Positions 4,929-38,632 of a DNA stretch of 54,244 bases are shown here, piece after piece. Below the pieces are notes generated by a model. That model saw nothing but the letters and a program-made list of their open reading frames with translations. It was not told the origin of the DNA and did not search any database. Positions within the stretch are counted from its first letter, which is position 1. Each line of letters starts with the position of its first letter. This DNA comes from a virus, in the IMG/VR virus record IMGVR_UViG_3300025646_000052, positions 1 through 54,244 of that record; one strand, given 5' to 3'. Made by a program: the position numbers and the translations under genes.

Positions 4929-4968
4929 GAGCTGTGGCCTCACTCGTTGAGAGCCGCAGCTCTTTTTT
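4929..4968 (+). terminator. Rho-independent terminator
   Basis: GAGCTGTGGC (4929-4938) pairs with GCCGCAGCTC (4953-4962), ten pairs with one G-U wobble, around a 14-base loop, followed by six T. It ends the 1-4881 unit. The rest of the gap to 5000 holds only AT-rich leader for the FAD gene. Confidence 0.85.
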
Positions 4969-4999: not shown

Positions 5000-6376
5000 A
5001 TGGAAAAAATCGTAATTGTAGGAGCTGGAGTTGCAGGCGTAAATGCAGCTACAAAGCTAGTAGACAACGGTTACCCAGGCGAACTTATCACTATTATTGA
5101 TATGGGCAAAAGCCCATATAAGCGTAAACCTTCTGAAGTAATGGAAGGTTTTCTTGGTGCTGGAGGTTGGTCTGATGGCAAACTAACATATCATACAGCT
5201 ATTGGTGGTCAATTATCAAAATATTGTGGCGAAGACAAAGCAATGGAATTGATGGACCAAGTAATTACTAACTTCAAACGATTCCATCCTAAACCAGAGG
5301 AAGTACAATGTTCAAATCCTGAAGCAGAACCCGATTTTATCAAACCATATTTCGGTTTGCGATTGTTTCCTGTATGGCACGTTGGTACAGATTATCTACA
5401 CGAGATTGGTAAAAATTGGTACGATTATTTGGTGTCAAAAGGGGTTCAATTTGAATGGGAAGCTAAAGTAACAGCAATTGATTTCGAAAATAATACAGGT
5501 AAAGTAACAGTCCCACAATCAGACCTAACACATACATTTGAATATGACCGCCTAATATTTGCAGTTGGTAAATCAGGTATTGACTTTGGTAAGCAATTAG
5601 CTGACGACTATAATTTCCCTACTGAACCAAAACCAGTACAAATTGGTGTTCGATTTGAAGCACCACAAAAACACTTCCAGAAACTAATCGATATCAGTTA
5701 CGACTTTAAGTTGTATCGTAAATTCGATAATGGTGTTTCACTCCGTTCATTCTGCACCAATAATAATGCAGCATACGTTGCTGTAGAAGAAACTTACGGA
5801 GATCACAGTTATAATGGTCACGCTAAAAAAGATATGCGATTCCGTAACGATATGACCAACTTTGGTATCTTAATGGAAATCCCAGGCATTGAAGAACCAT
5901 TTAAATGGTCACGTGACTTGGTTAAAAAAGTTCAAAAAGATGCTACTGGTTTATTTTATAGCCCTTCACGTCGCCCTTCATTAACTTCTGAAGGTGGGAC
6001 TGTAAGTGCAGTTGCTATCAACGCTCAACAAATGGATAAAGTAAGAGAAGCATTCCAAGGTTATTATCAATATATTGATGATTTTATTGAGGATATGAAA
6101 AAAGTATTCCCAACACTTGCACATGACTGGGGTGTTTATATTCCTGAAGTTAAATACTTAGCACCGGAACCACTTGTAGACTATAAAAACCTAGCACTAG
6201 CCCAATTTGACAATGTTCACTTTGTAGGCGATGCTCTATCAGCTCGTGGTATTACAGTTTCAGGTGCTCAAGGTACATATGTTGCTGAAGATATTTTAGA
6301 ACGATTTTGCACTGTAGAAAATGGTTCGTACATTTGCGAATGGGATAATATACACGGAGACGTGATAAATTGGTAA
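5000..6376 (+). CDS. FAD-dependent oxidoreductase (COG2509-like)
   Basis: The N-terminus has a textbook dinucleotide-binding fold: VIVGAGVAGVNAA with G8-x-G10-x-x-G13. GGWSDGKLT near residue 60 and the C-terminal FVGDALSARGITVSGAQG resemble the FAD-contacting motifs of uncharacterised FAD-dependent dehydrogenases such as COG2509. Length 458 aa is normal for a single-subunit flavoprotein. No signal peptide or membrane segment, so it should act in the host cytoplasm. An A-rich leader with AAAGGAAAA precedes the ATG. It heads an accessory block (FAD enzyme, small protein, cupin, kinase). Substrate and electron partner cannot be told from sequence; it may be an auxiliary metabolic or modification gene. 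Confidence 0.8.
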   Translation: MEKIVIVGAGVAGVNAATKLVDNGYPGELITIIDMGKSPYKRKPSEVMEGFLGAGGWSDGKLTYHTAIGGQLSKYCGEDKAMELMDQVITNFKRFHPKPEEVQCSNPEAEPDFIKPYFGLRLFPVWHVGTDYLHEIGKNWYDYLVSKGVQFEWEAKVTAIDFENNTGKVTVPQSDLTHTFEYDRLIFAVGKSGIDFGKQLADDYNFPTEPKPVQIGVRFEAPQKHFQKLIDISYDFKLYRKFDNGVSLRSFCTNNNAAYVAVEETYGDHSYNGHAKKDMRFRNDMTNFGILMEIPGIEEPFKWSRDLVKKVQKDATGLFYSPSRRPSLTSEGGTVSAVAINAQQMDKVREAFQGYYQYIDDFIEDMKKVFPTLAHDWGVYIPEVKYLAPEPLVDYKNLALAQFDNVHFVGDALSARGITVSGAQGTYVAEDILERFCTVENGSYICEWDNIHGDVINW

Positions 6377-6378
6377 TT

Positions 6379-6651
6379 ATGGCAAAACAAACTATATACG
6401 AAACAAAACAAATGAAAAATGGTGGGGCATATCATCATTTTTTTAAAGAATCAGGATCTGCAAATTGGAAATATCACAATTGGGATGGCCCTGCAGTAGA
6501 ACCTATTGAAGACGAAGATTCAAAATATAAAAAAGAGTACTATCTTTATGGAATTAGAATGACTCAAGAAGAATGGAATGAAGCTCGTAAAGATAGAGAA
6601 GGGCTTCCTTGGTATAAAAATCCATCAATGCGTGGAACAACACGATTCTAA
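6379..6651 (+). CDS. Unassigned 90-aa protein with HNWDGPA motif
   Basis: The frame is open from a TTG at 6370, but the ATG at 6379, 3 bases after the upstream stop, is preferred (MAKQTIYETKQMKNGGAYHH). The pattern WKYHNWDGPAVEP followed by YYLYGIRMTQEEWNEA recalls small phage proteins in which a xWDGPA strand pair is followed by a YLxGxxxTxEEW helix. Function of such proteins is not known to me. It sits between the FAD enzyme and a cupin, within one operon. Confidence 0.65.
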   Translation: MAKQTIYETKQMKNGGAYHHFFKESGSANWKYHNWDGPAVEPIEDEDSKYKKEYYLYGIRMTQEEWNEARKDREGLPWYKNPSMRGTTRF

Positions 6652-6652
6652 T

Positions 6653-7039
6653 ATGAGAGAACACACTTTAGAAGCTCAACCTTATCAAGGTGAGCACCAT
6701 GAAAAAGCATGGGGACACGAACTATGGATTATTAATAATGAATTGTATTGTGGCAAACTTCTAGTATTTAAAGAAGGTAAACAATTCTCAATGCACTATC
6801 ATATATTAAAAGATGAAGCTTGGTATGTTTCTAAAGGTGAATTTACATATAAGTGGATTGATACTGAAACAGCAACTGAACATCACACACATATTAAAGA
6901 AGGGGACTGTATCCATTTAATCCCAGGACAACCTCACCAATTATTGGCTCTTACAGAAGGAGCTACTATATTTGAGGTGTCAACACAACATTTTGATTAC
7001 GATAGTTATAGAGTTAAACCAGGAGATTCACAAGCATGA
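6653..7039 (+). CDS. Cupin-domain protein, 128 aa
   Basis: The frame is open from 6578, but the ATG at 6653 directly after the upstream stop is the sensible start; earlier sequence would overlap the preceding gene by 74 bases. The protein has the cupin signature: FSMHYHILKDEAWYVSKGEF (H, H and E metal ligands), then a second motif with LIPGQPHQLLAL, as in the mannose-6-phosphate isomerase C-terminal cupin type. KAWGHELWI near the start is also typical of sugar-phosphate related cupins. It overlaps the next gene by ATGA. It may act on a nucleotide-sugar or sugar phosphate, but this is inference. Confidence 0.75.
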   Translation: MREHTLEAQPYQGEHHEKAWGHELWIINNELYCGKLLVFKEGKQFSMHYHILKDEAWYVSKGEFTYKWIDTETATEHHTHIKEGDCIHLIPGQPHQLLALTEGATIFEVSTQHFDYDSYRVKPGDSQA

Positions 7040-7566
7040 AAATAGGATTATGTGGCACAATGTCAGTAGGTAAAACTACACTTGTTAACGCTCTTAAAGA
7101 CCTCCCTGAATTTAAAGATTATATGTTTAGAACTGAACGCTCTAAATATTTAATGTCTCAAGGTATTCCATTGAATACTGATTCAACCTTAAAAGGACAA
7201 ACAGTATTTTTAGCTGAACGTGCTAGTGAGCTTATCCAAGAAAACATTATTACAGATCGTACTGTAATTGATGTTATGGCTTTTGCTCAAGCTTCTAAAT
7301 CAATGGATTATATTGATAAAGAAGCATTTACTGAATATGCTACACGTTTTATTAGCGAATATGATTATATTTTTTATATTTCTCCTGAAGGGGTAGAAAT
7401 GGAAGACAACGGTGTTCGTGAAACTGATCAAGATTACCGCCAACTGATCGATTTTACTATTAGAATGATTATTGATAAAAATAAACATCGTATTAAAAAG
7501 TATGGTATTCTTGAAGGACCTACAGAACAACGCATAGAACAATTGATATTTCAATTAGGGATATAA
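7036..7566 (+). CDS. P-loop nucleotide kinase-like ATPase (AAA_28 / NadR type)
   Basis: Walker A is clear at residues 7-15 (GTMSVGKTT). The following layout (RTERSKYL, then a second core strand ending ITDRTVIDVMAF with Asp and Arg, and DYIFYISPEG) matches the AAA_28 or NadR-kinase-like family of small phage P-loop kinases. Length 176 aa is typical. It overlaps the cupin gene by ATGA and ends its operon. It should bind ATP and phosphorylate a small metabolite such as a nucleotide or nucleoside; the substrate is not visible. Confidence 0.75.
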   Translation: MKIGLCGTMSVGKTTLVNALKDLPEFKDYMFRTERSKYLMSQGIPLNTDSTLKGQTVFLAERASELIQENIITDRTVIDVMAFAQASKSMDYIDKEAFTEYATRFISEYDYIFYISPEGVEMEDNGVRETDQDYRQLIDFTIRMIIDKNKHRIKKYGILEGPTEQRIEQLIFQLGI

Positions 7567-7597: not shown

Positions 7598-8374
7598 ATG
7601 AAAAAATCTGAATTATACGATTCTATTCGTGAAATGATCGTTCAAGAACTTACCTCATACTCAGGACCAGAGGCTGTAACTTCTATGCAACAAGATCCAA
7701 ATTTCCAAAAATCTAAAGATAAAGAGTCTCTTATTAAAACTTTAAAATCAGGAGGCACTGTAAATTTAGAAGAAGAACAACTCGATGAAATGGCTAAAAT
7801 CGCTGGTGATTTAAAAGCTGCTATCGAAAAAGTAATCGAAAAAAATAAAGACGCTGAAAAGAAAGACGTTCGTAAAGCAATTAAAGCTGACGACGAAGTA
7901 GTAGCTGCTTTAGGTGACGAAGATTTATTTGATAATCAATTAAATAAATTTATCGATTTAGTAAGAGGTGAAAGAGAAGTAGGCCAACGTGGTCGTAAAG
8001 CCGATCCTGATAAACCACAAAAAGAAAAAGGTACACGTGGTCGTCCAAAATCAGCAACCCCAACCTCTCCAAAAGAAAAAGTAGCTAAGTTTGTAACTTC
8101 TAAATTAAACAAATCTTACACTACAGACGACGAAGAAGGACCATCAGATAAAGAACTTAAACAACTTGCTCGTTCAGGTGGTAAATTCGATAAATCAAAA
8201 TTAAGCCAACTCCGTCAACAAGAAAAAACCAAAATGATTAGAGCATTCTTGAAAGACATGCAATCTAAAGGTGTTGTTGACTCAGCAAACCGCGTATTAG
8301 ATAAAGACGCTTACGCTAAAGAATGGGCAGACGCTAAAGTAGATATTGAAGCAAAGGTAGCTGCTATAAACTAA
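7598..8374 (+). CDS. Unassigned 258-aa protein with AT-hook-like motif
   Basis: Highly charged protein. Residues about 126-150 contain two AT-hook-like clusters, QRGRKADP and TRGRPKSA, the second close to the canonical hook core (RGRP flanked by basic residues). The N-terminus (MKKSELYDSIREMIVQEL) is helical and the C-terminus looks like a helical domain. DNA binding is a reasonable inference. It lies two genes before the large terminase, the region where T4-like phages keep the small terminase, so a packaging-accessory role is possible but not shown. A late-signal motif precedes it and a coupled membrane-protein gene follows. Confidence 0.65.
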   Translation: MKKSELYDSIREMIVQELTSYSGPEAVTSMQQDPNFQKSKDKESLIKTLKSGGTVNLEEEQLDEMAKIAGDLKAAIEKVIEKNKDAEKKDVRKAIKADDEVVAALGDEDLFDNQLNKFIDLVRGEREVGQRGRKADPDKPQKEKGTRGRPKSATPTSPKEKVAKFVTSKLNKSYTTDDEEGPSDKELKQLARSGGKFDKSKLSQLRQQEKTKMIRAFLKDMQSKGVVDSANRVLDKDAYAKEWADAKVDIEAKVAAIN

Positions 8375-8375
8375 A

Positions 8376-8954
8376 ATGAAAAAATATTTTAAAAATATCC
8401 AATCACTGTTAATTGCAGTATTGGTAGTTGTGATTTTCCTAATGAGACAATGCTCAGGAGGCTCAATTGAACCTACTGAACGTGTTATTAGGGATACTAT
8501 CATTGAATATGTAACAATTGAAAAAGAATACCCAGTTTACGTACCTAAAGTTAAATACGTAACTAAAGTAGACATTGATACATTTTCTACACCAATCGAT
8601 ACATCAGCTATCTTAGCAGACTATTATGCTATTAGAACATATGAGGATACACAAGTATTAGACAGTCTAGACTTAACAATTACTGATACAGTATCCCAAA
8701 ACCAAATCTTAGGTAGAAAAATTGCTTACAATTTTACCTATCCTAGAAAGACAATTATCGAAAAACACTATATTAACCAAAGAGAACTATACTTCGGTTT
8801 AGGTTTGGCAGGTAATAAAGATCAAATTCAATACTTAGGTGGTGAAATGTTATATAAAAACAAGAAAAAGCAAGCACTCGGCTTGGGAATAGGAGTTGAC
8901 CAGACTTTGGCACCAGTTATTTCGGGCCGTATGTACTGGAAACTCGGAAAATGA
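8376..8954 (+). CDS. Membrane-anchored protein with N-terminal transmembrane helix, 192 aa
   Basis: Residues about 9-24 form a hydrophobic segment (SLLIAVLVVVIFLM) after a basic start (MKKYFKN), followed by RQCSGGS. The Cys after the helix is not in a convincing lipobox. The long beta-type region after it (PVYVPKVKYVTKVDIDTFST) and a Gly-rich C-terminal domain (YFGLGLAGNKDQ; LGLGIGVDQ) look periplasmic. I associate similar N-anchored proteins with Bacteroidota phages. A spanin or envelope role is possible but unproven. Its stop overlaps the terminase start by ATGA. Confidence 0.6.
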   Translation: MKKYFKNIQSLLIAVLVVVIFLMRQCSGGSIEPTERVIRDTIIEYVTIEKEYPVYVPKVKYVTKVDIDTFSTPIDTSAILADYYAIRTYEDTQVLDSLDLTITDTVSQNQILGRKIAYNFTYPRKTIIEKHYINQRELYFGLGLAGNKDQIQYLGGEMLYKNKKKQALGLGIGVDQTLAPVISGRMYWKLGK

Positions 8955-10522
8955 GCGAACCTAATTTAAGACATATAATTCAACAAGAGTACATAAAATG
9001 TGCCCAAGATCCGGTGCATTTTATGAACAAATATTGTTATATTCAACACCCACAACGAGGTCGTATTTTATTTAATCTTTATCCATTCCAAGGTAAAGTA
9101 CTTCATTTATGGAGAGACAATCCATATTCTGTAGTACTTAAATCCCGTCAGTTAGGTATCTCAACTTTAGCTGCAGGTTATTCTTTATGGTTAATGCTAT
9201 TCCATAAAGATAAAAACGTACTCTGTATTGCGACAAAGCAAGAAACAGCTAAAAACATGGTAACTAAAGTACGTTTCATGTATGATAATCTACCCAGTTG
9301 GCTTAAAATAGACACTATAGAAAATAACAGATTATCACTTCGATTAAGTAATGGATCTCAAATTAAAGCAGTAGCAGCAAGTAGTGATGCAGGTCGTTCA
9401 GAAGCAGTTTCTCTTCTACTAATTGACGAGGCAGCGTTTATTGAACAGATTGGTGAAATTTGGGCTTCAGCTCAACAAACCCTAGCAACTGGTGGTGGTG
9501 CTATTGTATTATCTACTCCTTATGGTACAGGTAACTGGTTTCATCAAACATGGATGAGAGCAGAATCAGCTGAAAATGATTTTTTACCAATTAAATTACC
9601 TTGGTATGTTCACCCTGAAAGAAATGAGGAATGGAGAAAACGACAAGATGAATTATTAGGTGATCCTAGATTAGCAGCACAAGAATGTGACTGTGACTTT
9701 AGTACTTCTGGAGATACTGTATTTTACTCTGAGTGGATTGAATTTATAGAAACTACCACTGTAAAAGAACCTATGGAACGTAGAGGTGCTGATAAAAATC
9801 TTTGGGTATGGGAACCAGCTGATTATAGTAGAGACTATATGGTGGTAGCTGACGTTGCTCGAGGTGATGGTAAAGACTTTTCAGCTGCTCATGTAATTGA
9901 CATTGCAACTAATACACAAGTTGCTGAATATAAAGGTCAATTACCACCTAAAGAATTTGGTTTATTTTTAATTGGTTTAGCTTCTGAGTATAATCAAGCA
10001 TTATTAGTAGTAGAAAACGCCTCAGTAGGGTGGGCTACTATAGAATTAATTATGGAAAATGGATATCGCAACTTTTATTCATCTCCTAAAAGTGACCAAG
10101 TTACAGCTGAATCATATTTTAGTAGATATGAATTTGGAAGTAATACAACTCCTGGATTTACTATGTCACTCCGTACAAGACCCCTTGTCATTAATAAAAT
10201 GAGAGAGTATATTGGTGATAGAAGTGTAAATATTCAATCTAAAAGATTGTTAGAGGAAATGAAAGTATTTGTTTGGAGAAACGGAAGACCAGAAGCCCAA
10301 CCAGGCTATAATGATGACTTGGTTATGTCATTTGGGATTGGTATGTTTCTACGAGATACATCACTTAAATTTCAACAACAAGGATTAGATATGACTAGAG
10401 CTGCTTTAAATAATATAAGTAAACCTAATTCCCCTAGTGGTGTATATAGTCGAATTGGAGCAGCTAATCCATACATGCAAGAAATTAAGGGTCAACAAGA
10501 AGACATTACATGGCTTTTGTAA
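8951..10522 (+). CDS. Terminase large subunit (T4 gp17-like)
   Basis: ATP-driven DNA-packaging motor and headful nuclease. The ATPase domain has a Walker A variant at residues 64-72 (KSRQLGIST) and Walker B LLLIDEAAF with D159 and E160. The C-terminal RNase H-like nuclease has VADVARGDGKD (D301) and a late acidic pair in GYNDDLVMSF (D455, D456); VVENASVGW lies between them. Length 523 aa is somewhat shorter than T4 gp17 (610). It overlaps the upstream membrane-protein gene by 4 bases and is followed by the portal gene, the usual packaging pair. It acts at the portal vertex of the prohead. Confidence 0.93.
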   Translation: MSEPNLRHIIQQEYIKCAQDPVHFMNKYCYIQHPQRGRILFNLYPFQGKVLHLWRDNPYSVVLKSRQLGISTLAAGYSLWLMLFHKDKNVLCIATKQETAKNMVTKVRFMYDNLPSWLKIDTIENNRLSLRLSNGSQIKAVAASSDAGRSEAVSLLLIDEAAFIEQIGEIWASAQQTLATGGGAIVLSTPYGTGNWFHQTWMRAESAENDFLPIKLPWYVHPERNEEWRKRQDELLGDPRLAAQECDCDFSTSGDTVFYSEWIEFIETTTVKEPMERRGADKNLWVWEPADYSRDYMVVADVARGDGKDFSAAHVIDIATNTQVAEYKGQLPPKEFGLFLIGLASEYNQALLVVENASVGWATIELIMENGYRNFYSSPKSDQVTAESYFSRYEFGSNTTPGFTMSLRTRPLVINKMREYIGDRSVNIQSKRLLEEMKVFVWRNGRPEAQPGYNDDLVMSFGIGMFLRDTSLKFQQQGLDMTRAALNNISKPNSPSGVYSRIGAANPYMQEIKGQQEDITWLL

Positions 10523-23144: not shown

Positions 23145-26100
23145 ATGGCAAATATAAGATATCTAGACCAAGTAACAGTTGGCCCTTCCGTAACTTCTAT
23201 TAGTGGTGAATCCACTACTTCTGGCACATCTGGAACCGCAGGTTCTTCAGGCACAACTGGCTCATCTGGAACATCAGGATATTCAGGTTCTGCAGGTACT
23301 TCAGGTATTACTGGATCTTCAGGTCAATCAGGTTCTACTTCAGGAACATCAGGCTCTGGTGGTTCTTCAGGTACTTCAGGTGCCGTAGGTTCTTCAGGCG
23401 AATCTAGTACATCCGGCTCTTCAGGCGAATCAGGCACTTCAGGCACTTCAGGCTCTTCAGGCGAATCAGGTACTTCAGGCTCTTCAGGCGAATTTGGAAC
23501 ATCAGGTTCATCAGGAAGTTCAGGTTCATCAGGTAGTTTAGGTTCTTCAGGTAGTTCAGGTTCATCAGGTTCAAGTGGTTCTTCAGGTTCATCAGGTTCA
23601 AGCGGAACATCAGGTTTAAGCGGTTTTTCAGGTAGTTCAGGTTCATCAGGTAGTTCAGGTTCTTCAGGTAGTTCAGGTTCAAGTGGTTCATCAGGAAGTT
23701 CAGGTTCATCAGGTAGTTCAGGTTCATCAGGTAGTTCAGGTTCATCAGGTTCAAGTGGAGCTGATGGCTCTTCAGGTGAATCTGGTACTTCAGGTTCATC
23801 AGGAGTTGCTGGCTCATCCGGTACTTCAGGTTCATCAGGTTCAAATGGTTCATCTGGCACTTCAGGCGAATCTGGCACTTCAGGTTTAAGTGGATCTACA
23901 GGTTCAAACGGTACCTCAGGTAACACTGGTACCTCAGGTCAATCCGCTCAATCTTCAACATCAGGCTCTTCCGGCTCTTCAGGTACTACTGGCTCAACAG
24001 GAGCTGCAGGTACATCAGGCGAAGCTGCAACTTCAGGTTCAGCAGGTTCATCTGGTACAAATGGTACAAGTGGAAATTTAGGCTCATCAGGAGCCTCAGC
24101 TCAATCAGGCACTTCAGGCTCATCAGGTACAGTAGGTTCAACCGGAGCTGCGGGTACATCAGGTTTATCTGGTTCATCTGGTTCATCTGGTTCAACAGGA
24201 GAATCAGGTACTAGTGGAATTTCAGGTACTTCAGGCGAATCTAATTCTTCAGGAACTAATGGTTCTTCAGGCAATAGTGGTACATCTGGTGAATCCGGTA
24301 CATCAGGTTCAGCTGGCTCTTCAGGTACTATAGGCTCAAGTGGTACAGGTGCAGGCTCAGGTTCATCAGGTACTTCAGGTTCTTCAGGTGAATCTGCAAC
24401 TTCAGGTTCATCAGGCTCTTCAGGTTTAGCTGGCACATCAGGAGCTTTAGGTTCAAGCGGAGAATCAGCCCAATCAGGTACCTCAGGCTCTACAGGTTCA
24501 AACGGTACTTCAGGTAACACAGGAACATCTGGTCAATCAGCTCAATCTTCAACATCAGGCTCTTCAGGTTCTTCAGGTACTACTGGTTCAACTGGAGCTT
24601 CAGGTACATCAGGTGAATCTGGCACTTCAGGTTTATCAGGCTCTACAGGTTCAAACGGTACTTCAGGTAACACAGGTACTTCAGGTCAATCTGCTCAATC
24701 TTCAACATCAGGTTCTTCAGGTTCTTCAGGTACTACTGGCTCATCTGGTGAGTCTGGCACATCAGGTGAATCTGGCACTTCAGGTTTATCAGGTTCAACT
24801 GGTTCAAATGGTACCTCAGGTAACACAGGAACATCTGGTCAATCAGCTCAATCTTCAACTTCAGGTTCATCTGGTTCTTCAGGCACAACTGGCTCATCTG
24901 GTGAGTCTGGCACATCAGGTGAATCTGGATCTTCTGGTACTTCAGGTTCAACAGGTGAATCTGGTACCTCAGGTAATAATGCTACTTCAGGTTTATCAGG
25001 TTCATCAGGTACAGTAGGTTCAACAGGAGAATCAGGTACTTCAGGTGAATCAGGTACATCAGGTTCAGCTGGATCTTCAGGTACTATAGGTTCAAGTGGT
25101 ACAGGAGCTGGTGCTGGTACTTCAGGTGAATCTGGTTCATCAGGTGAATCTGCAACTTCAGGCTCAGCAGGCTCTTCAGGCTCAGCTGGTACATCAGGAG
25201 ATTTAGGATCATCAGGAGCATCAGCTCAATCAGGAACTTCAGGCTCTACAGGCTCAAATGGTACCTCAGGTAACACAGGAACATCTGGTCAATCAGCTCA
25301 ATCTTCAACTTCAGGTTCTTCTGGTACTTCAGGTACTACAGGTTCAACTGGCATAGCAAGTACTTCAGGTGAAGCTGGATCTTCAGGTTCATCAGGTTCT
25401 TCTGGTACCCAAGGTTCTACAGGAGCCGCAGGTACTTCAGGCGAATCTACTACATCTGGTACTTCAGGCTCTTCAGGTACAGTAGGTTCAACCGGAGCTG
25501 CTGGTACTTCAGGAGAAGCAGCCACATCTGGTACTTCAGGTTCTTCAGGTACTATAGGTTCAAGTGGTACAGGAGCTGGTGCTGGTACTTCAGGTGAATC
25601 TGGTTCATCAGGTGAATCTGCAACTTCAGGCTCTTCAGGTTCATCTGGTACAAACGGTACCTCAGGTAATATAGGATCATCAGGAGCATCAGCTCAATCA
25701 GGAACTTCAGGTTCTACTGGTTCAAACGGTACTTCAGGTAATACAGGCACTTCAGGCCAATCTGCCCAATCAGGCACATCAGGTAGCTCAGGCTCATCTG
25801 GAACTACAGGTTCAACAGGAGCTGCAGGTACTTCAGGCGAAGCTGCTACATCAGGCTCATCAGGCTCTTCTGGTACTCAAGGCTCAACAGGAGCCGCAGG
25901 TACTTCAGGCGAATCTACTACATCAGGCACTTCAGGTTCTTCGGGCACAGTAGGTTCAACTGGAGCTGCTGGTACTTCAGGAGAAGCAGCTACATCAGGC
26001 TCTTCAGGATCTTCAGGTACTATAGGTTCAAGTGGTACAGGTGCAGGCTCAGGTACATCAGGTATTTCAGGTTCTTCAGGTGAATCTGCAACTTCAGGTT

Positions 26101-29100
26101 CATCAGGTTCCACTGGTACAAATGGTACAAGTGGAAATGTAGGTTCATCAGGAGCTTCAGCTCAATCAGGTACTTCAGGCTCTACAGGCTCAAATGGTAC
26201 CTCAGGCAATACAGGCACCTCAGGTCAATCTGCTCAATCTTCAACATCAGGCTCTTCAGGTTCTTCAGGTACTACAGGTTCAACTGGTGCTGCGGGCACA
26301 TCAGGAGATAGTGCTACTTCAGGTTCTAGTGGTTCATCAGGTACTCAAGGTTCAACCGGAGCTGCTGGTACTTCAGGTGAAGCCTCTACATCTGGTACTT
26401 CAGGTTCATCAGGTACTCAAGGTTCAACCGGAGCTGCTGGTACTTCAGGAGAAGCAGCTACATCAGGCTCTTCAGGATCTTCTGGTACTCAAGGCTCAAC
26501 AGGAGCCGCAGGTACTTCAGGTGATAGTTTAACTTCTGGTACTTCAGGCTCTTCCGGTACAGTAGGCTCAACAGGAGCTGCAGGCACTTCCGGTGACAGC
26601 TCTACTTCAGGTTCATCAGGTACTACAGGTTCAACTGGTACTAGTGGTGTAGGTTCAGGTTCAGGATCTTCAGGCGAATCAGGAACAAGTGGTTCTTCTG
26701 GTTTAGCAGGAACTTCAGGTTCTACAGGCTCAAATGGTACTTCAGGTAATAATGGTACTTCAGGATTATCTAATACTTCAGGTTCGTCTGGTTCTACAGG
26801 TTCAAACGGTACTTCAGGTAATAACGGTACATCAGGTGCATCAGCTACTAGCGGATCTTCAGGTTCCACTGGTACAAATGGTACAAGTGGAAATGTAGGT
26901 TCATCAGGAGCTTCAGCTCAATCAGGTACCTCAGGCTCTACAGGTTCAAATGGTACTTCAGGTAACACGGGTACTTCAGGTCAATCTGCTCAATCATCAA
27001 CTTCAGGTTCATCAGGTACGTCTGGTACCACTGGTTCAACTGGAGCCGCAGGTACTTCAGGCGAATCTACTACATCTGGATCTTCAGGCTCTTCAGGTAC
27101 TCAAGGTTCTACAGGAGCTGCAGGCACATCAGGCGCTTCAGCTACTAGTGGATCCTCAGGTTCAACTGGTACAAATGGTACTTCAGGAAACGTTGGTACT
27201 TCAGGAGCATCTGCACTTTCAGGTTCATCAGGTTCAACTGGTTCGAATGGTACCTCAGGTAATACGGGTACTTCTGGTCAATCTGCTCAATCTTCAACAT
27301 CAGGCTCTTCAGGTTCATCTGGTACTACAGGCTCAACTGGAGCTGCAGGTACATCAGGCGCATCAGCTACTAGCGGATCTTCAGGTTCTACTGGTACAAA
27401 TGGTACTACAGGTAACGCCGGAACTGCAGGTCAATCAGGCTTAAGCAAATCTTCAGGAACAAGTGGTTCATCTGGTACTACAGGTTCAACCGGAGCAGCT
27501 GGTAGTAGTAATTTAAGTGCCACGTCAGGTACTTCAGGCTCATCAGGTACTCAAGGTTCAACAGGAAACGCCGGTACTTCAGGCGAAGCTGCTACATCAG
27601 GTTCATCAGGTTCAACTGGTACAAATGGTACTTCAGGAAACGCTGGTACTTCAGGATTATCAGCACTTTCAGGTTCATCAGGTTCAACAGGTACAAACGG
27701 TACTACTGGTAATGCAGGTACTGCAGGTCAATCAGGTTTAAGTAAATCTTCAGGTACCTCAGGTTCATCTGGTACTACAGGTTCTGCTGGTGCTGCTGGT
27801 CAATCTAATTTAAGTGCAACTTCAGGTACTTCAGGCTCATCAGGTACTCAAGGTTCAACAGGAAACGCCGGTACTTCAGGCGAAGCTGCTACATCAGGTT
27901 CAAGTGGTTCCACAGGTTCAAACGGTACCTCAGGCAATAATGGCACATCAGGTGCATCAGCTACTAGCGGATCTTCAGGTTCAACAGGTACAAACGGTAC
28001 TACTGGTAATGCAGGTACTGCTGGACAATCAGGTTTAAGTAAATCTTCAGGAACAAGTGGTTCATCTGGTACTACTGGTTCAGCTGGAGCAGCTGGCGGT
28101 AGTAATTTAAGTGCTACATCAGGTACTTCAGGTTCATCAGGTACTCAAGGCTCAACAGGAGCAGCTGGTACTTCAGGTGCGGCTACTACATCAGGTTCAA
28201 GTGGTTCTACTGGTTCAAACGGTACTTCAGGTAATAATAGCACATCAGGCGCATCAGCTACTAGCGGATCTTCAGGTTCTACTGGTACAAATGGTACTAC
28301 AGGTAACGCCGGAACTGCAGGTCAATCAGGCTTAAGCAAATCTTCAGGCACCTCAGGTTCATCTGGTACTACTGGTTCAATAGGAGCGGCAGGTCAATCT
28401 AACTTAAGTGCTTCTTCAGGCACTTCAGGCTCATCAGGCACAACTGGTTCAGCAGGTAATGCTGGTGGTAGCAATTTAAGTGCTACATCAGGTACTTCAG
28501 GTTCATCTGGTACTACAGGTTCTGCTGGTGCTGCTGGTCAATCTAATTTAAGTGCAACTTCAGGTACAAGTGGCTCAACAGGTACAAATGGTACTTCAGG
28601 CAATGCTGGTAACTCAGGTAACTCAGGCACTTCAGGCACTTCAGGCACTACAGGTTCAAATGGTAACTCAGGTAATGCTGGTAACTCTGGTAATTCTGGT
28701 ACTTCAGGTACCTCAGGAACTAATGGTTCAAATGGTAACGCCGGTAATTCAGGTAATTCTGCTACATCAGGTACAAGCGGTTCTACTGGTACTAATGGCT
28801 CAAATGGTAATAATGGAGGTTCAGGTTTAAGCAGGACATCAGGTTCATCAGGCTCATCAGGTACAAATGGTACTTCAGGTAATAATGGTACTGCAGGTGC
28901 TAGTGCTAATTCAGGCACAAGTGGATCAACCGGTACAAACGGTACTACTGGTAACGCAGGCACAGCTGGACAATCAGGCTTAAGTAAATCTTCCGGTACT
29001 TCAGGTTCATCTGGTACTACTGGTTCAGCAGGAGCTGCTGGTGGTAGTAATTTAAGTGCTACTTCAGGCACTTCAGGTTCATCTGGTACTACAGGCTCAA

Positions 29101-31688
29101 ACGGTAATAATGGTGGTTCAGGAATAAGCCGGACATCAGGTTCATCAGGTTCAACTGGTACAAATGGTACTTCAGGTAATAATGGTACTGCAGGTTCAAG
29201 TAGAACTTCAGGAAGTTCTGGTACAACTGGTTCCAATGGTACTTCAGGTAACAATGGTAACGCCGGCAATTCAGGTAATTCAGCTACTTCAGGCACTTCA
29301 GGCACTTCAGGTTCAAATGGTAATGCTGGAGCAGCAGGATCTTCTAACGTAAGTGCCACTTCAGGAACTTCTGGTACAAATGGTTCAAACGGTGCTGCTG
29401 GTAATGCTGGTTCATCTAACGTAAGTAATACATCAGGTACTTCAGGATCGAATGGCACATCAGGTAACTCAGGCAATGCAGGTAATTCAGGATTAAGCCG
29501 GACTTCTGGTACAAGTGGTTCAACAGGTACAAACGGTACTTCAGGAGCTAATGGAAACTCTGGTAATAGTGGTAACTCAGGTACTTCAGGTACAAATGGT
29601 TCAAGTGGTAACAATGGTAATGCTGGTAACTCAGGCAACTCAGGTACTTCAGGTACTTCAGGTACAAATGGTTCTAGTGGTAATGCCGGAGCAGCTGGCT
29701 CATCTAACATAAGTGCTACTTCAGGAACTTCAGGTACAAATGGTTCAACCGGAGCTGCCGGTAATGCTGGTTCATCCAACGTAAGTGCTACTTCAGGAAC
29801 CTCAGGCTCAAATGGTACTTCAGGTAACTCAGGAAACGCTGGTAACTCAGGATTAAGCCGTACTTCAGGAACCTCAGGTTCAACTGGTACTAATGGTACC
29901 TCAGGTAACAACGGTAACGCAGGCAATTCAGGTAACTCAGGTACTTCAGGTACAAATGGTTCAAGTGGTAACAATGGTAATGCTGGTAACTCAGGTAACT
30001 CAGGTACTTCAGGTACAAATGGTTCAAGTGGTAACTCAGGTAACTCAGGTAATTCTGGTAATTCAGGTACATCTGGTACTAATGGTTCAAACGGAGCTAA
30101 TGGTAACGCAGGCAATTCAGGTTTAAGCAGAACCTCAGGTACCACAGGTTCAAATGGTACCTCAGGTAACAATGGAGTCAATGGTAACTCAGGCAACTCA
30201 GGCAACTCAGGAACTTCTGGTACTAATGGTTCAACTGGTAACTCAGGCAACTCAGGCAACTCTGGTAATTCAGGTACATCTGGTACAAACGGTACTTCAG
30301 GTAATAATGGAGCTAGTGGCAACTCAGGCAACTCAGGCGTATCAGGAACAAATGGCACAACTGGTTCAAACGGTACCTCAGGTAATAATGGAGCTAACGG
30401 AAACTCAGGTAATTCAGGAGTTTCAGGTACAAATGGTACTAATGGTTCAAACGGTGCTAATGGTAATAACGGTAACTCAGGATTAAGCCGGACTTCAGGT
30501 ACTTCAGGTTCATCTGGTACAAATGGTAATAGTGGTAACACTGGAGCTTCTGGCATAAGCCGTACTTCAGGTACTAATGGCTCAAACGGTACCTCAGGTA
30601 ACAATGGTAACTCAGGCAACTCAGGTAACTCAGGTACTTCAGGCACAACAGGTTCATCAGGCAACTCAGGTAACTCAGGTAACTCAGGTAACTCAGGTAA
30701 CTCTGGAACTAATGGTACTTCTGGAACCTCAGGTGCTTCTTCAGGTTCTTCAGGTACTAGCCGGACTTCAGGTACAAGTGGTACAAATGGTACTTCAGGT
30801 GCTTCAGCTACTACTTCAGGTACTAGTGGTAACTCAACAGGCAAAACTTCAGGAACTTCAGGTACAAATGGTACCTCTGGTAACAATGGTAATGCAGGTA
30901 ACTCAGGTAACTCAGCAGTTTCAGGAAATTCAGGCACATCTGGTAGTAATGGTACTAATGGCAACAACGGTAACTCAGGCAACTCTGGTAATTCAGGTAC
31001 ATCTGGTACAACTGGTTCAAGTGGTACTTCAGGTGCTAATGGTAACGCAGGTGGTTCAGGCAGTTCACGCTCATCAGGTACTTCAGGTACAAATGGTACA
31101 AGTGGTATCTCAGGTAATGTAGGTACAGCAGGTACTTATGTATCAATTACAGCCGGTTCTGGTCTATCAGGTGGTGGTTCATTGATTACTGACCGGACTA
31201 TATCACTCCAAGATGACTTAAGAGGTGAAGCTTGGTATATTGGTAGAGATACTAATGATTATATCCACGTTAACACTACTCAAATTGAATTCTACTTAGA
31301 TGGTAACTTAGATGCCTTAATTCAAAATGATGGTGATTTCCACGCTGACGGTGACGTAATTGCTTACTCTACTACAACTTCAGATAGAAGATTAAAAGAC
31401 AATATCACAACTATTGAAAACGCTTTAGATAAAGTTACTAAACTTAGAGGTGTTGAATATGATTGGAATGCGGGTGGTAGAAAAGGACAACATGACTTAG
31501 GTGTAATAGCCCAAGAAGTTGAAGAAATTATCCCTCACATTGTAAGAGAAAAAGAACTTAAAGTAGGAGAGTATAAAAACAACCCTCAAATAGTTAAAAC
31601 TGTTGATTATGAAAAATTAACTGCAGTATTAATAGAAGCAGTTAAAGAACTTAAAACACAGCTTGATGAATTAAAAAATAGTAAATAA
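23145..31688 (+). CDS. Giant collagen-like (Gly-X-Y) fibre protein with C-terminal S74 chaperone domain
   Basis: 2847 aa, the largest gene here. Residues 1-20 form a short head (MANIRYLDQVTVGPSVTSIS). Residues 21-2662 are Gly-X-Y triplets made mostly of GSS, GTS, GES, GNS, GTN and GAA, with no proline. Gly is often replaced in register (GQS-AQS-STS; GLS-RTS). A connector (GTAGTYVSI, GGGSL, TDRT) leads to a small beta domain and, from about residue 2740, a Peptidase_S74 intramolecular chaperone: S2746 and K2751 in SDRRLKDNI, then LGVIAQEVEEIIP and a final helix. S74 domains trimerise fibres and cut themselves off. Predicted role: trimeric tail or head fibre. Ser/Thr content and downstream glycosyltransferases suggest O-glycosylation. 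Confidence 0.88.
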   Translation: MANIRYLDQVTVGPSVTSISGESTTSGTSGTAGSSGTTGSSGTSGYSGSAGTSGITGSSGQSGSTSGTSGSGGSSGTSGAVGSSGESSTSGSSGESGTSGTSGSSGESGTSGSSGEFGTSGSSGSSGSSGSLGSSGSSGSSGSSGSSGSSGSSGTSGLSGFSGSSGSSGSSGSSGSSGSSGSSGSSGSSGSSGSSGSSGSSGSSGADGSSGESGTSGSSGVAGSSGTSGSSGSNGSSGTSGESGTSGLSGSTGSNGTSGNTGTSGQSAQSSTSGSSGSSGTTGSTGAAGTSGEAATSGSAGSSGTNGTSGNLGSSGASAQSGTSGSSGTVGSTGAAGTSGLSGSSGSSGSTGESGTSGISGTSGESNSSGTNGSSGNSGTSGESGTSGSAGSSGTIGSSGTGAGSGSSGTSGSSGESATSGSSGSSGLAGTSGALGSSGESAQSGTSGSTGSNGTSGNTGTSGQSAQSSTSGSSGSSGTTGSTGASGTSGESGTSGLSGSTGSNGTSGNTGTSGQSAQSSTSGSSGSSGTTGSSGESGTSGESGTSGLSGSTGSNGTSGNTGTSGQSAQSSTSGSSGSSGTTGSSGESGTSGESGSSGTSGSTGESGTSGNNATSGLSGSSGTVGSTGESGTSGESGTSGSAGSSGTIGSSGTGAGAGTSGESGSSGESATSGSAGSSGSAGTSGDLGSSGASAQSGTSGSTGSNGTSGNTGTSGQSAQSSTSGSSGTSGTTGSTGIASTSGEAGSSGSSGSSGTQGSTGAAGTSGESTTSGTSGSSGTVGSTGAAGTSGEAATSGTSGSSGTIGSSGTGAGAGTSGESGSSGESATSGSSGSSGTNGTSGNIGSSGASAQSGTSGSTGSNGTSGNTGTSGQSAQSGTSGSSGSSGTTGSTGAAGTSGEAATSGSSGSSGTQGSTGAAGTSGESTTSGTSGSSGTVGSTGAAGTSGEAATSGSSGSSGTIGSSGTGAGSGTSGISGSSGESATSGSSGSTGTNGTSGNVGSSGASAQSGTSGSTGSNGTSGNTGTSGQSAQSSTSGSSGSSGTTGSTGAAGTSGDSATSGSSGSSGTQGSTGAAGTSGEASTSGTSGSSGTQGSTGAAGTSGEAATSGSSGSSGTQGSTGAAGTSGDSLTSGTSGSSGTVGSTGAAGTSGDSSTSGSSGTTGSTGTSGVGSGSGSSGESGTSGSSGLAGTSGSTGSNGTSGNNGTSGLSNTSGSSGSTGSNGTSGNNGTSGASATSGSSGSTGTNGTSGNVGSSGASAQSGTSGSTGSNGTSGNTGTSGQSAQSSTSGSSGTSGTTGSTGAAGTSGESTTSGSSGSSGTQGSTGAAGTSGASATSGSSGSTGTNGTSGNVGTSGASALSGSSGSTGSNGTSGNTGTSGQSAQSSTSGSSGSSGTTGSTGAAGTSGASATSGSSGSTGTNGTTGNAGTAGQSGLSKSSGTSGSSGTTGSTGAAGSSNLSATSGTSGSSGTQGSTGNAGTSGEAATSGSSGSTGTNGTSGNAGTSGLSALSGSSGSTGTNGTTGNAGTAGQSGLSKSSGTSGSSGTTGSAGAAGQSNLSATSGTSGSSGTQGSTGNAGTSGEAATSGSSGSTGSNGTSGNNGTSGASATSGSSGSTGTNGTTGNAGTAGQSGLSKSSGTSGSSGTTGSAGAAGGSNLSATSGTSGSSGTQGSTGAAGTSGAATTSGSSGSTGSNGTSGNNSTSGASATSGSSGSTGTNGTTGNAGTAGQSGLSKSSGTSGSSGTTGSIGAAGQSNLSASSGTSGSSGTTGSAGNAGGSNLSATSGTSGSSGTTGSAGAAGQSNLSATSGTSGSTGTNGTSGNAGNSGNSGTSGTSGTTGSNGNSGNAGNSGNSGTSGTSGTNGSNGNAGNSGNSATSGTSGSTGTNGSNGNNGGSGLSRTSGSSGSSGTNGTSGNNGTAGASANSGTSGSTGTNGTTGNAGTAGQSGLSKSSGTSGSSGTTGSAGAAGGSNLSATSGTSGSSGTTGSNGNNGGSGISRTSGSSGSTGTNGTSGNNGTAGSSRTSGSSGTTGSNGTSGNNGNAGNSGNSATSGTSGTSGSNGNAGAAGSSNVSATSGTSGTNGSNGAAGNAGSSNVSNTSGTSGSNGTSGNSGNAGNSGLSRTSGTSGSTGTNGTSGANGNSGNSGNSGTSGTNGSSGNNGNAGNSGNSGTSGTSGTNGSSGNAGAAGSSNISATSGTSGTNGSTGAAGNAGSSNVSATSGTSGSNGTSGNSGNAGNSGLSRTSGTSGSTGTNGTSGNNGNAGNSGNSGTSGTNGSSGNNGNAGNSGNSGTSGTNGSSGNSGNSGNSGNSGTSGTNGSNGANGNAGNSGLSRTSGTTGSNGTSGNNGVNGNSGNSGNSGTSGTNGSTGNSGNSGNSGNSGTSGTNGTSGNNGASGNSGNSGVSGTNGTTGSNGTSGNNGANGNSGNSGVSGTNGTNGSNGANGNNGNSGLSRTSGTSGSSGTNGNSGNTGASGISRTSGTNGSNGTSGNNGNSGNSGNSGTSGTTGSSGNSGNSGNSGNSGNSGTNGTSGTSGASSGSSGTSRTSGTSGTNGTSGASATTSGTSGNSTGKTSGTSGTNGTSGNNGNAGNSGNSAVSGNSGTSGSNGTNGNNGNSGNSGNSGTSGTTGSSGTSGANGNAGGSGSSRSSGTSGTNGTSGISGNVGTAGTYVSITAGSGLSGGGSLITDRTISLQDDLRGEAWYIGRDTNDYIHVNTTQIEFYLDGNLDALIQNDGDFHADGDVIAYSTTTSDRRLKDNITTIENALDKVTKLRGVEYDWNAGGRKGQHDLGVIAQEVEEIIPHIVREKELKVGEYKNNPQIVKTVDYEKLTAVLIEAVKELKTQLDELKNSK
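23205..31130 (+). repeat. Gly-X-Y coding repeat of fibre 1 (about 880 triplets)
   Basis: A 9-base unit (GGN plus two small-residue codons, mostly TCA, TCT, ACT, ACA, AAT or AAC) repeated over 7.9 kb. Larger cassettes recur, for example the one with GNTGTSGQSAQS, about nine times. I count five one-residue insertions: one at 23331-23342 (GSTS) and four near 30732-30851. These account for the length of 2642 residues. The rest keeps period 3. Confidence 0.9.
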
Positions 31689-35929: not shown

Positions 35930-38632
35930 ATGAAGAAATTATTGTATATAGCTCCCCATTTATCTACTGGGGGCCTTCCTCAATATCTATGTAAAAAAAT
36001 TGAGCTATTAAAAGATACATATGAAATTTATTTAGTTGAATGGGTAGATTGTACTGGGGGAGTTTTAGTAGTTACAAGAAATAAAATTGTAGATTTAATA
36101 GATTCTAGTAGATTTTTTACTTTAGGAGATAATAAAATGGAACTTATTGATATAATCAATCAAGTTCAACCTGATATTGTTCATTTAGAAGAAATTCCTG
36201 AATTTTTTATGGACAGATCTGTAGCAGAACAAATATACTCTACTAAACGTAAATATAGAATTGTAGAAACATCCCATGATTCATCTTATAATACCCAAGA
36301 AAAATCATTCTTCCCAGACAAATTTATGTTTGTATCTGAGTGGCAAATTCAACAATATAAAGATATAGACATTCCTAAAACTGTAGTATACTACCCAATT
36401 GAATACGTTGAACGTCCTAATAGAGAAGAAGCATTAAAAGAATTAGGATTAGATCCAAACAAAAAACATGTTTTACACGTTGGGTTATACACTCCTAGAA
36501 AAAATCAAAAAGAATTTTTTGAATATGCTCAACAATTTCCTGATGTTGAATTCCATAGTTTAGGTAATAGAGCTGATAATTTTAAATGGTACTGGGAAGA
36601 TTTAGCTAATAATCAACCTTCAAACTTAACTTGGTGGAACGAACGCACTGATGTAGATAAATTCTATCAAGCAATGGATTTGTTTTTGTTTACTTCTCGC
36701 GGAACAAATAATGATAAAGAAACAATGCCACTAGTAATTCGTGAAGCAGTTTCATATCAAATCCCAATTTTAATATATAACCTCCCAGTATACTTAAATT
36801 ATTGGGATAATTTTGAAGGAGTAAATTATTTAGAATTTGATAATTTTGAAAAAAATTGTGAGTTAATAGCTGGAAAACTAGGAGTTCAAATTTATAATCC
36901 TGAAAATGAGGCTATTATTATTTCTACTTATCCTATTACTGATAGCATTGTTAATACAACTAAAGAATGTATTGTAAAAGCTAAACAAACTGGAAGAAAA
37001 ATTATCCTTGTATCCCATGCTCCTATCCCAGAAGAATTACAATCATTAGTAGATTATTGTATTTACGATAAAAATAATATTTTAACTAAACATACATTCT
37101 TTAACAAATCATTCTATTACTCCCCAGATTTTGATGTATACGTTAATTTAAATGGTGAAAATAATGACATATATCATGGTCCTACAGTTTATACTAATTA
37201 CTACAATGGATGTATTTTAGCAAAAAAGTTAGGTATTAAAAAAGTATTCTTTTTAAATTTTGACTATATTTTAAATCATAAAACATATTTAGATGAAATT
37301 TCATCTATTTTAGATACACAAGATGCTTTTTATGAATTTAGACAAGAACAAGAAGGCCCATGTTTAACTACATTCTTTGCTGCAGCTAAACCTGAATTTT
37401 ATACTAAAAATTTCCCTTTAATAACAGATTCTAAACAGTATGATGATTTACAGCATAAATGGGGATCAGAGACTAATAGTTTAGAAAACTTAATGTATAA
37501 TGGAGTTAAAAATCTCCCCAAAGTTCATTATGAAAATACTGAAATTTTTAGAGAAAAGTTAAATAGAGATATTACTCATAAAGATTTTTCAAGAGTAGAA
37601 TATTTTACAGCACTCCCAGTAGAAGAACACCCAGAGATATTTTGTCCTTATATCCAAGTATTAAATAGTAAAGATAGTAGACTTTTCAAACTCTCAGTAT
37701 TTAAAAATTCAAATTTAGTTAATACCCAAGATTTAGAAATTATAGACAAAACTTTTTATTATTTACCCATAAATTGTGAATCATTTAATAAAAATGATTT
37801 GTATGAAATTAAATTAGAAATTTTTGATTTAAATACTAATAAATTTATAGAAAGTAAACAAATAAACATTGATTATAATTACTATAATGATATCTTACCT
37901 CAAAATGGGTTTATAAAAATTAAAAATTTAGTAACCTCTAAAAAAATCAAATTAATGCACTTAGTTACTGAGCCGGAAACCAATCCAAAAGAAATACGCT
38001 CAGTAAACAATATTAAAGATTTTTGTGAAAAAACAGGTATTAAATATGAACAACGTATAAATAAAATATGGACTGAATTACCTCCTAAAGATACTTGTAA
38101 TCGCCCAGATGACGTTCAAGATAAACCTGGTTACTATAAACTTGCTCCTGGCCACTATGGTTGTTATATTGCCCATACTACAGCTATAAATGATGAAGAT
38201 AATTATAACTATGATTATATTTTAATATTTGAAGGAGATGTAATTGTTGACTCAGACTATCAAGAGTTATATGATTCATTAATTCGTTTTAGTAGATTAT
38301 CAAAAGAAACTAACCAAGATATTATTGGATTTGGAAATCCATGGCAAAACCGTAATTTAAATGGACCTAAAATTGAAGATGTTTATACAAACGTTACACC
38401 ATTTATTCCAGCCCAATCATATTTAATTAATAATGATAAACTATCTTATATTCAAGATAAAATTAGTACAACACCATGGGATGCTTTTGATATGTGGGTA
38501 TGTAATGTAGCTGAATTAAAAGTAGGAACAGCAGAAAAAATCTATACTAAACACCTCCCAGGATTTAGTATTATTGAACAAACCGATAAATCAACAGACG
38601 AAAATAGTCCATTAATATTTGCTAAAGAATGA
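35930..38632 (+). CDS. Multidomain glycosyltransferase (GT-B plus GT-A-like plus GT25-like), 900 aa
   Basis: Three modules. Residues 1-310: GT4-type GT-B fold with MKKLLYIAPHLSTGGLPQYL, HVGLYTPRKNQKEFFEYA and a late REAVSYQIPILIYNLP. Residues about 320-560: a second domain beginning IIISTYPITDSIVNTTKECI and SHAPIPEEL, then DYCIYDKNNI, like GT-A-type capsule transferases. A beta linker follows. Residues about 670-900: GT25-like, with HYGCYIAHT, LIFEGDVIVD (acidic metal-binding motif) and PAQSYLINN. It probably builds a glycan stepwise from nucleotide sugars. No membrane segment. It overlaps the next gene by ATGA. The likely acceptor is a fibre or a glycan on it, by context. Confidence 0.8.
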   Translation: MKKLLYIAPHLSTGGLPQYLCKKIELLKDTYEIYLVEWVDCTGGVLVVTRNKIVDLIDSSRFFTLGDNKMELIDIINQVQPDIVHLEEIPEFFMDRSVAEQIYSTKRKYRIVETSHDSSYNTQEKSFFPDKFMFVSEWQIQQYKDIDIPKTVVYYPIEYVERPNREEALKELGLDPNKKHVLHVGLYTPRKNQKEFFEYAQQFPDVEFHSLGNRADNFKWYWEDLANNQPSNLTWWNERTDVDKFYQAMDLFLFTSRGTNNDKETMPLVIREAVSYQIPILIYNLPVYLNYWDNFEGVNYLEFDNFEKNCELIAGKLGVQIYNPENEAIIISTYPITDSIVNTTKECIVKAKQTGRKIILVSHAPIPEELQSLVDYCIYDKNNILTKHTFFNKSFYYSPDFDVYVNLNGENNDIYHGPTVYTNYYNGCILAKKLGIKKVFFLNFDYILNHKTYLDEISSILDTQDAFYEFRQEQEGPCLTTFFAAAKPEFYTKNFPLITDSKQYDDLQHKWGSETNSLENLMYNGVKNLPKVHYENTEIFREKLNRDITHKDFSRVEYFTALPVEEHPEIFCPYIQVLNSKDSRLFKLSVFKNSNLVNTQDLEIIDKTFYYLPINCESFNKNDLYEIKLEIFDLNTNKFIESKQINIDYNYYNDILPQNGFIKIKNLVTSKKIKLMHLVTEPETNPKEIRSVNNIKDFCEKTGIKYEQRINKIWTELPPKDTCNRPDDVQDKPGYYKLAPGHYGCYIAHTTAINDEDNYNYDYILIFEGDVIVDSDYQELYDSLIRFSRLSKETNQDIIGFGNPWQNRNLNGPKIEDVYTNVTPFIPAQSYLINNDKLSYIQDKISTTPWDAFDMWVCNVAELKVGTAEKIYTKHLPGFSIIEQTDKSTDENSPLIFAKE

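Follow-up and report, generated by a model that had tools for sequence, protein, structure and literature searches.

In Campylobacter phages of the genus Fletchervirus, guanine is reported to be replaced in the DNA, and one account (PMC8713573) describes two kinds of substitution for the genera Fletchervirus and Firehammervirus. Here, we analysed a 54-kb linear virus record that may be a fragment (IMGVR_UViG_3300025646_000052, 54,244 nucleotides; this whole stretch is called the window), and in it a block of genes at positions 5000 to 7566 that encodes a putative flavin adenine dinucleotide (FAD) enzyme and a small P-loop kinase. Relatives of one or the other protein are found in phages of both genera. 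The study of Crippen et al. 2019 reportedly found full replacement of deoxyguanosine (dG), by deoxyinosine in the Fletcherviruses and by amido-7-deazaguanine in the Firehammerviruses. We propose that the FAD enzyme and the kinase of the window may be displaced partners of such a 7-deazaguanine or guanine-replacement pathway, possibly acting in a step not recognised so far, a reading that draws mostly on gene neighbourhoods and to which we give a probability of roughly 0.45.

The first-pass annotation of the window had described an accessory block of three co-transcribed genes, for a complete FAD-dependent enzyme, a cupin and a P-loop kinase. The three frames are real, with matches to Pyr_redox_2, Cupin_2 and AAA_28, respectively, and the FAD enzyme carries the GAGVAG, GGWSDGKLT and FVGDALSARG motifs reported for it. 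However, the block has four genes rather than three, as a conserved gene for a protein of 91 amino acids (aa) lies between the FAD and cupin genes. The features are as follows.

4949..4964, + strand: terminator-like hairpin with a T run, directly 5' of the block (consensus match in a pattern scan only)
5000..6376, + strand: COG2509/VP0956-like FAD enzyme, 458 aa (complete reading frame, family and fold matches)
6379..6651, + strand: 91-aa conserved protein with a single 'WDGPA...YYLYGI' motif (ATG at 6379; the program-made frame begins at a TTG, 6370)
probably 6653..7039, + strand: cupin, 128 aa, sugar-cupin-like, optional (the conserved part begins at the ATG at 6653)
7036..7566, + strand: P-loop nucleoside/nucleotide kinase-like protein, 176 aa (AAA_28; NadR / deoxynucleoside kinase fold)
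8951..10522, + strand: terminase large subunit, the fixed downstream neighbour of the block (phrog_2, 1.3e-48)

The genes of the block are packed head to tail, with an overlap of 4 bases between cupin and kinase; the cupin start first listed, at 6578, overlaps the 91-aa gene. Co-transcription is suggested by this packing and by the upstream hairpin, and should be read as a deduction from them. Terminator-like sites number six between 4000 and 9200 in the pattern scan, compared with 2.4 (standard deviation 1.6) in shuffled sequences. Two genes, at 7598 and 8376, separate the kinase from the terminase and the portal gene begins at 10550, so that the block runs into the terminase/portal module.

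The arrangement is highly stable among relatives. Of 80 viral loci selected with the FAD enzyme, 77 contain the kinase, 73 the 91-aa gene, 66 the terminase and 31 the cupin. As for the three loci without a kinase, two end before its expected place (L010 and L047) and the third has none in the 2.5 kb downstream (L059). Because loci chosen with the FAD enzyme are biased by that choice, relatives were selected again with the terminase alone, and those with less than 3 kb of upstream sequence were excluded. The 32 remaining loci harbour the FAD enzyme in 31 cases, the kinase in 31, the 91-aa gene in 30 and the cupin in 9; with at least 5 kb upstream (21 loci), the counts are 21, 21, 20 and 7. One of the 32 loci (L154) has neither FAD enzyme nor kinase within 3.5 kb. 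The order FAD enzyme, small gene, kinase holds in 82/82 loci, and deeper relatives (L238 and L239, terminase 55%) retain the arrangement, with insertions. Both the FAD enzyme and the kinase belong to the core of the lineage, as a conserved pair accompanied by the small gene, and the cupin is optional. The label 'accessory' is therefore wrong for the pair. The expectation that the genes travel together holds for the FAD enzyme and the kinase, in one order and one context nearly throughout, and fails for the cupin.

Over 50 loci, pairwise identity averages 77.0 for the FAD enzyme, 72.2 for the terminase, 69.8 for the portal and 64.2 for the kinase; over 14 terminase-selected loci, the values are 74.3, 80.5, 74.9 and 66.2. 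As the ranking reverses in the terminase-selected subset, we dropped the claim that the FAD enzyme is conserved above the terminase, and we call its conservation only comparable to those of terminase and portal.

The lineage of uncultured phages carrying the pair is large, since at least 578 viral contigs encode a relative of the FAD enzyme in a pattern scan. A scan of cellular genomes with the same protein returned five loci, four of them strong, namely three contigs of metagenome-assembled genomes (MAGs) with the gene order of the lineage and a 6.5-kb contig, L179, discussed below; the fifth is a short match in Dictyobacter. Matches to the FAD enzyme in human faecal records named 'Bacteriophage sp.' were set aside as bacterial relatives after four contigs had been read: two (L169 and L083) carry chromosome-type genes, with frames resembling a DNA polymerase III subunit, RecR and SsrA-binding protein as well as transporters, and no phage genes were recognised in the other two (L167 and L168).

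The FAD enzyme matches Pyr_redox_2 at 1.5e-8, above the Pfam cut-off. In an alignment of 103 sequences (the window and 102 loci), 97% or more share the residue at 225 of its 458 positions. An N-terminal GxGxxG and a C-terminal GD motif are present, with G positions that are invariant across the alignment. The structure-based comparison proposed in the first-pass annotation gave a consistent answer: the best match of the model, whose mean predicted local distance difference test score (pLDDT) is 77.8, is 3nlc, VP0956 of Vibrio parahaemolyticus (Foldseek, 2.7e-15), which also ranks first by VIA (Z 23.0, 386 residues aligned, root-mean-square deviation 4.6; Z 19.1 for the next row). A sequence profile points the same way, though weakly (8.6e-4). 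Among viral models, the closest carries the annotation COG2509 (43% identity), and next comes one of Campylobacter phage F348 (TMq 0.78). The phage and bacterial proteins share a GAGxxSDGKL motif, GAGGWSDGKL in the phage and GAGTFSDGKL in 3nlc, and their SFC motifs align. In SFCMCPGG of 3nlc and SFCTNNNA of the phage, the first Cys is kept and the second lost; as bacterial relatives also depart from the former motif (FCMNP, FCQNP), only the first Cys can be regarded as common. The phage enzyme is shorter than 3nlc and specific to its lineage. From sequence and model, the protein falls into a phage branch of the COG2509/VP0956 flavoproteins, with predicted FAD binding and activity. To our knowledge, no function has been established for COG2509 flavoproteins.

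The kinase matches AAA_28 at 1.9e-11 (44.9 bits for a Pfam cut-off of 27), and G7, G12 and K13 of its P-loop, GTMSVGKT, are invariant. Its model (mean pLDDT 89.9) matches Mycoplasma mycoides deoxyadenosine kinase, thymidylate kinases and NadR. The fold is like those of NadR and deoxynucleoside kinase (PDB 6gyf and 2jat; TMq 0.75 and 0.72), at approximately 18% identity, but the protein consists of the kinase domain only and lacks the nicotinamide mononucleotide adenylyltransferase domain of NadR. Taken by themselves, the folds of the FAD enzyme and the kinase do not specify a function. The 91-aa protein is kept beside the kinase, at a median distance of 18 bases in the loci that showed no cupin. 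In the Streptomyces phage Karimac (L234), a gene of the same kinase family (7998-8621) sits beside a methyltransferase gene and two genes before the terminase, a terminase-near place as in the window.

The neighbourhoods of related genes point to DNA bases. The L179 contig, from a MAG named Bacilli, has the order QueC, FAD enzyme, kinase, DpdA-like protein, MazG, with identities of 54% for the FAD enzyme and 49% for the kinase, and its QueC matches PF06508 at 9e-71. The name DpdA comes from the depositor's annotation of one gene of Flavobacterium phage immuto; the order of motifs in the family (DNS, Q-G, HLLG, DTS) appears similar to that of tRNA-guanine transglycosylase. Eight DpdA-like loci outside the lineage were examined, L179 and 7 of the 31 named records with a DpdA-like match (Campylobacter 2/15, Cellulophaga 1/5, Bacillus 1/5, Flavobacterium 1/4, Chryseobacterium 1/1, Weizmannia 1/1). 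All eight have a small P-loop kinase at or near the DpdA-like gene, directly adjacent in seven and two genes away in the eighth, immuto. In four of them, the kinase belongs to the same family as that of the window. CC_R7 has the order QueC, DpdA-like, kinase, DNA polymerase, and in Cellulophaga phiST, Chryseobacterium MA9V-3, Bacillus BSTP12 and Weizmannia Youna2 a P-loop kinase-like gene of two other subfamilies touches the DpdA-like gene. CP220 and CC_R7 are assigned to one genus (PMC12398825). Their DpdA-like proteins, compared here, are only 27% identical. Two relatives have a small thioredoxin gene immediately next to the DpdA-like gene (L171:3799-4050 and L249:4927-5178; Pfam was used in L171).

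Relatives of the window phage carry genes of the same kind. Of the nine with at least 100 kb, eight have QueC (truncated by the contig end in one), seven have QueD and seven have the DpdA-like gene; FolE is present in 6 of the 16 records of a separate list of relatives. The FAD enzyme of one relative, G021, shares 84% identity with that of the window, and G021 carries QueC, QueD and a DpdA-like gene. The AAA_28 kinase family occurs exactly once in each of the nine long records, a few kb from the FAD gene, and no P-loop frame lies within four genes of the DpdA-like gene in the eight neighbourhoods of the lineage. These two counts, 9/9 and 0/8, suggest that the kinase is a DpdA partner that was split from DpdA and has remained at the terminase end together with the FAD enzyme. 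QueF was undetected in 16/16 relatives, in Microcystis phage Mel-JY01 and in Fletchervirus NCTC12673, and was detected in immuto, in which the FAD enzyme is absent, so that an exchange between FAD enzyme and QueF is a pattern drawn from one named phage. The conserved pairing, the family assignments, the neighbourhoods, the co-occurrence and the lack of a detectable QueF are thus direct observations. They favour nucleotides and DNA bases over glycans, so that the earlier proposal of enzymes acting on a cofactor, nucleotide or sugar donor is half right.

In the pathway that we envisage, FolE, QueD, QueE, QueC, a DpdA-like base-exchange enzyme and MazG would be encoded elsewhere in the phage genome. 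The kinase would most likely phosphorylate a guanine-type deoxynucleoside or nucleotide that is made or released in base exchange. As for the FAD enzyme, it would most likely tailor the 7-deazaguanine group by a flavin-dependent oxidation or reduction, or might remove competing dG, taking the place of QueF. We infer the substrates, the chemistry, the order of the steps and the occurrence of Que and DpdA-like genes in the window phage itself. We found no literature that connects either a FAD enzyme or a kinase adjacent to DpdA with 7-deazaguanine in phage DNA, in a search that left most subscription papers outside its reach.

Several observations weigh against this proposal. The 7-deazaguanine genes lie 53-95 kb from the FAD-kinase block, measured from kinase to DpdA-like gene by coordinates in seven records, and the block itself sits with structural genes. 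The window has no Que or DpdA-like gene in its 54 kb, which is expected of its structural segment; in addition, a 130-kb relative that may be a fragment (G004) shows no FolE, QueC, QueD or DpdA-like gene. The operon of the L179 type is known from a single contig, and among 385 genomes of its order only its own genome was found. When its proteins were used for further scans, one relative came up with the FAD enzyme, two with the kinase and none with the DpdA-like protein; all three have the block before the terminase. The DpdA-like family has no sequence match in Pfam, NCBIfam or the PDB, and Hutinet et al. 2019 place Campylobacter phages among those without DpdA (PMC6884629). As they are counted there as lacking it, naming gp056 of Firehammervirus CP220 DpdA-like goes further than that study. 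The FAD enzyme and the kinase are also separable, since Fletcherviruses encode the FAD enzyme yet gave no match to DpdA-like proteins or QueE, and CP220 has the DpdA-like gene and the kinase without the FAD enzyme. Finally, 89 Streptomyces phage records carry the kinase family beside a methyltransferase and near the terminase, and Streptomyces phages do not figure among the main QueC-bearing groups.

The last of these findings is also compatible with a role in general nucleotide metabolism, in which an ordinary (deoxy)nucleoside or nucleotide kinase and an unrelated FAD enzyme would share a slot before the terminase that tolerates enzymes. The fold of the kinase, with deoxyadenosine kinase, thymidylate kinase and NadR as its neighbours, fits such a role, as does a second copy of the kinase beside the dUTPase gene in CP220; moreover, the Streptomyces phages have the kinase without an obvious Que context. 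However, it would leave unexplained the near-universal pairing of the two genes and their order, the L179 operon and the recurring place of the kinase at DpdA-like genes, and we regard it as rather unlikely. Alternatively, the FAD enzyme could act in the capsid, tail or packaging machinery, for instance in oxidative maturation or cross-linking. Its fixed place in the structural module, in 31/32 loci, would agree with this, and so would its strong conservation, although the ranking above terminase and portal over 50 loci is biased by selection. Against a virion function, the FAD gene of L179 stands among QueC, kinase and DpdA-like genes, on a contig with no recognised structural gene, that of NCTC12673 is near the dUTPase, clamp loader and topoisomerase genes, and immuto and Mel-JY01 do without the enzyme. 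We consider such a function improbable.

A different route to the same modification is through the nucleotide pool. A short DpdA-like enzyme might swap the base of free deoxyguanosine or of its nucleotide, the kinase might phosphorylate the 7-deaza product for the phage polymerase, MazG or HD enzymes might remove deoxyguanosine triphosphate (dGTP), and the COG2509 flavoenzyme might, in this lineage, make a further base not described so far or convert dG nucleotides. Such a flavin-dependent conversion of dG nucleotides would also fit the Fletcherviruses, and the route as a whole would, by analogy, parallel the Z-genome (2-aminoadenine) system. A DNA polymerase gene adjoins the pair of DpdA-like and kinase genes in CC_R7, BSTP12 and Youna2. 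The absence of any phosphorylated form of amido-7-deazaguanine, as is said to have been the case in the study of Crippen et al. 2019, counts against this route, and we think it quite improbable. Directly upstream of the DpdA-like gene of CP220, gp055 (L240:2543-4452 for gp055-gp056) encodes an HD-domain and P-loop protein; judging from its domains, this protein could remove dGTP, as in Z-genome phages.

A glycan pathway, in which FAD enzyme, cupin and kinase would supply a sugar for the downstream glycosyltransferases at 38629-40775, has in its favour the resemblance of the cupin to sugar cupins and its fusion to a methyltransferase in two relatives, but the three genes are not inherited as one unit, the cupin being present in 9/32 loci and the FAD enzyme and kinase in 31/32 each, and relatives of the latter two are found elsewhere with base-modification or replication genes rather than glycan genes, which makes it very improbable. 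The link to glycans suggested in the first-pass annotation was thus rejected for the FAD enzyme and the kinase, and the cupin alone hints at sugars. The cupin frame matches Cupin_2 at 3.8e-8 and resembles WbuC (1.4e-5) and D-lyxose isomerase (4.5e-6), and it is fused to an FkbM-type methyltransferase in both relatives tested by Pfam (L100:7685-8752 and L004:4055-5161), which suggests that it belongs with sugar chemistry and not with the FAD-kinase pair. Long cupin frames are also found in L079, L098 and L101. Elsewhere in the window, the two glycosyltransferase genes (GT group 1 and GT9-like) are directly 5' of the tail sheath gene, and a single frame of 2847 aa, with long antisense frames, occupies 23145-31688 in the structural region.

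If the guanine-replacement reading is correct, a phage branch as conserved as the terminase would offer a handle on the function of COG2509 proteins. Furthermore, the recurring pair of DpdA-like and kinase genes makes it testable whether DNA is modified after replication or an altered nucleotide is built beforehand. Among named phages, only the Campylobacter Fletcherviruses have the FAD family: gp8 of NCTC12673, a 'NAD(FAD)-utilizing dehydrogenase', belongs to it by profile (8.8e-27) and is approximately 24% identical to the enzyme of the window, in a genome that has no kinase of the window's family. In the Firehammervirus CP220, the DpdA-like gp056 is directly followed by gp057, of the window kinase's family. 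By terminase, the closest named phages are immuto (59%) and then Mel-JY01 (52%), the latter with no FAD enzyme, kinase, DpdA-like or QueE match. Immuto has a 7-deazaguanine cluster of QueE, FolE, DpdA, a formyltransferase, the 'thymidylate kinase' gp203 and QueF. Unlike the lineage of the window, it has QueF and a formyltransferase, its kinase lies inside the cluster and it has no FAD enzyme. Nevertheless, gp203, which is located between the formyltransferase and QueF, belongs to the family of the window kinase (6.4e-22), and Que and DpdA-like genes are common to immuto and the lineage.

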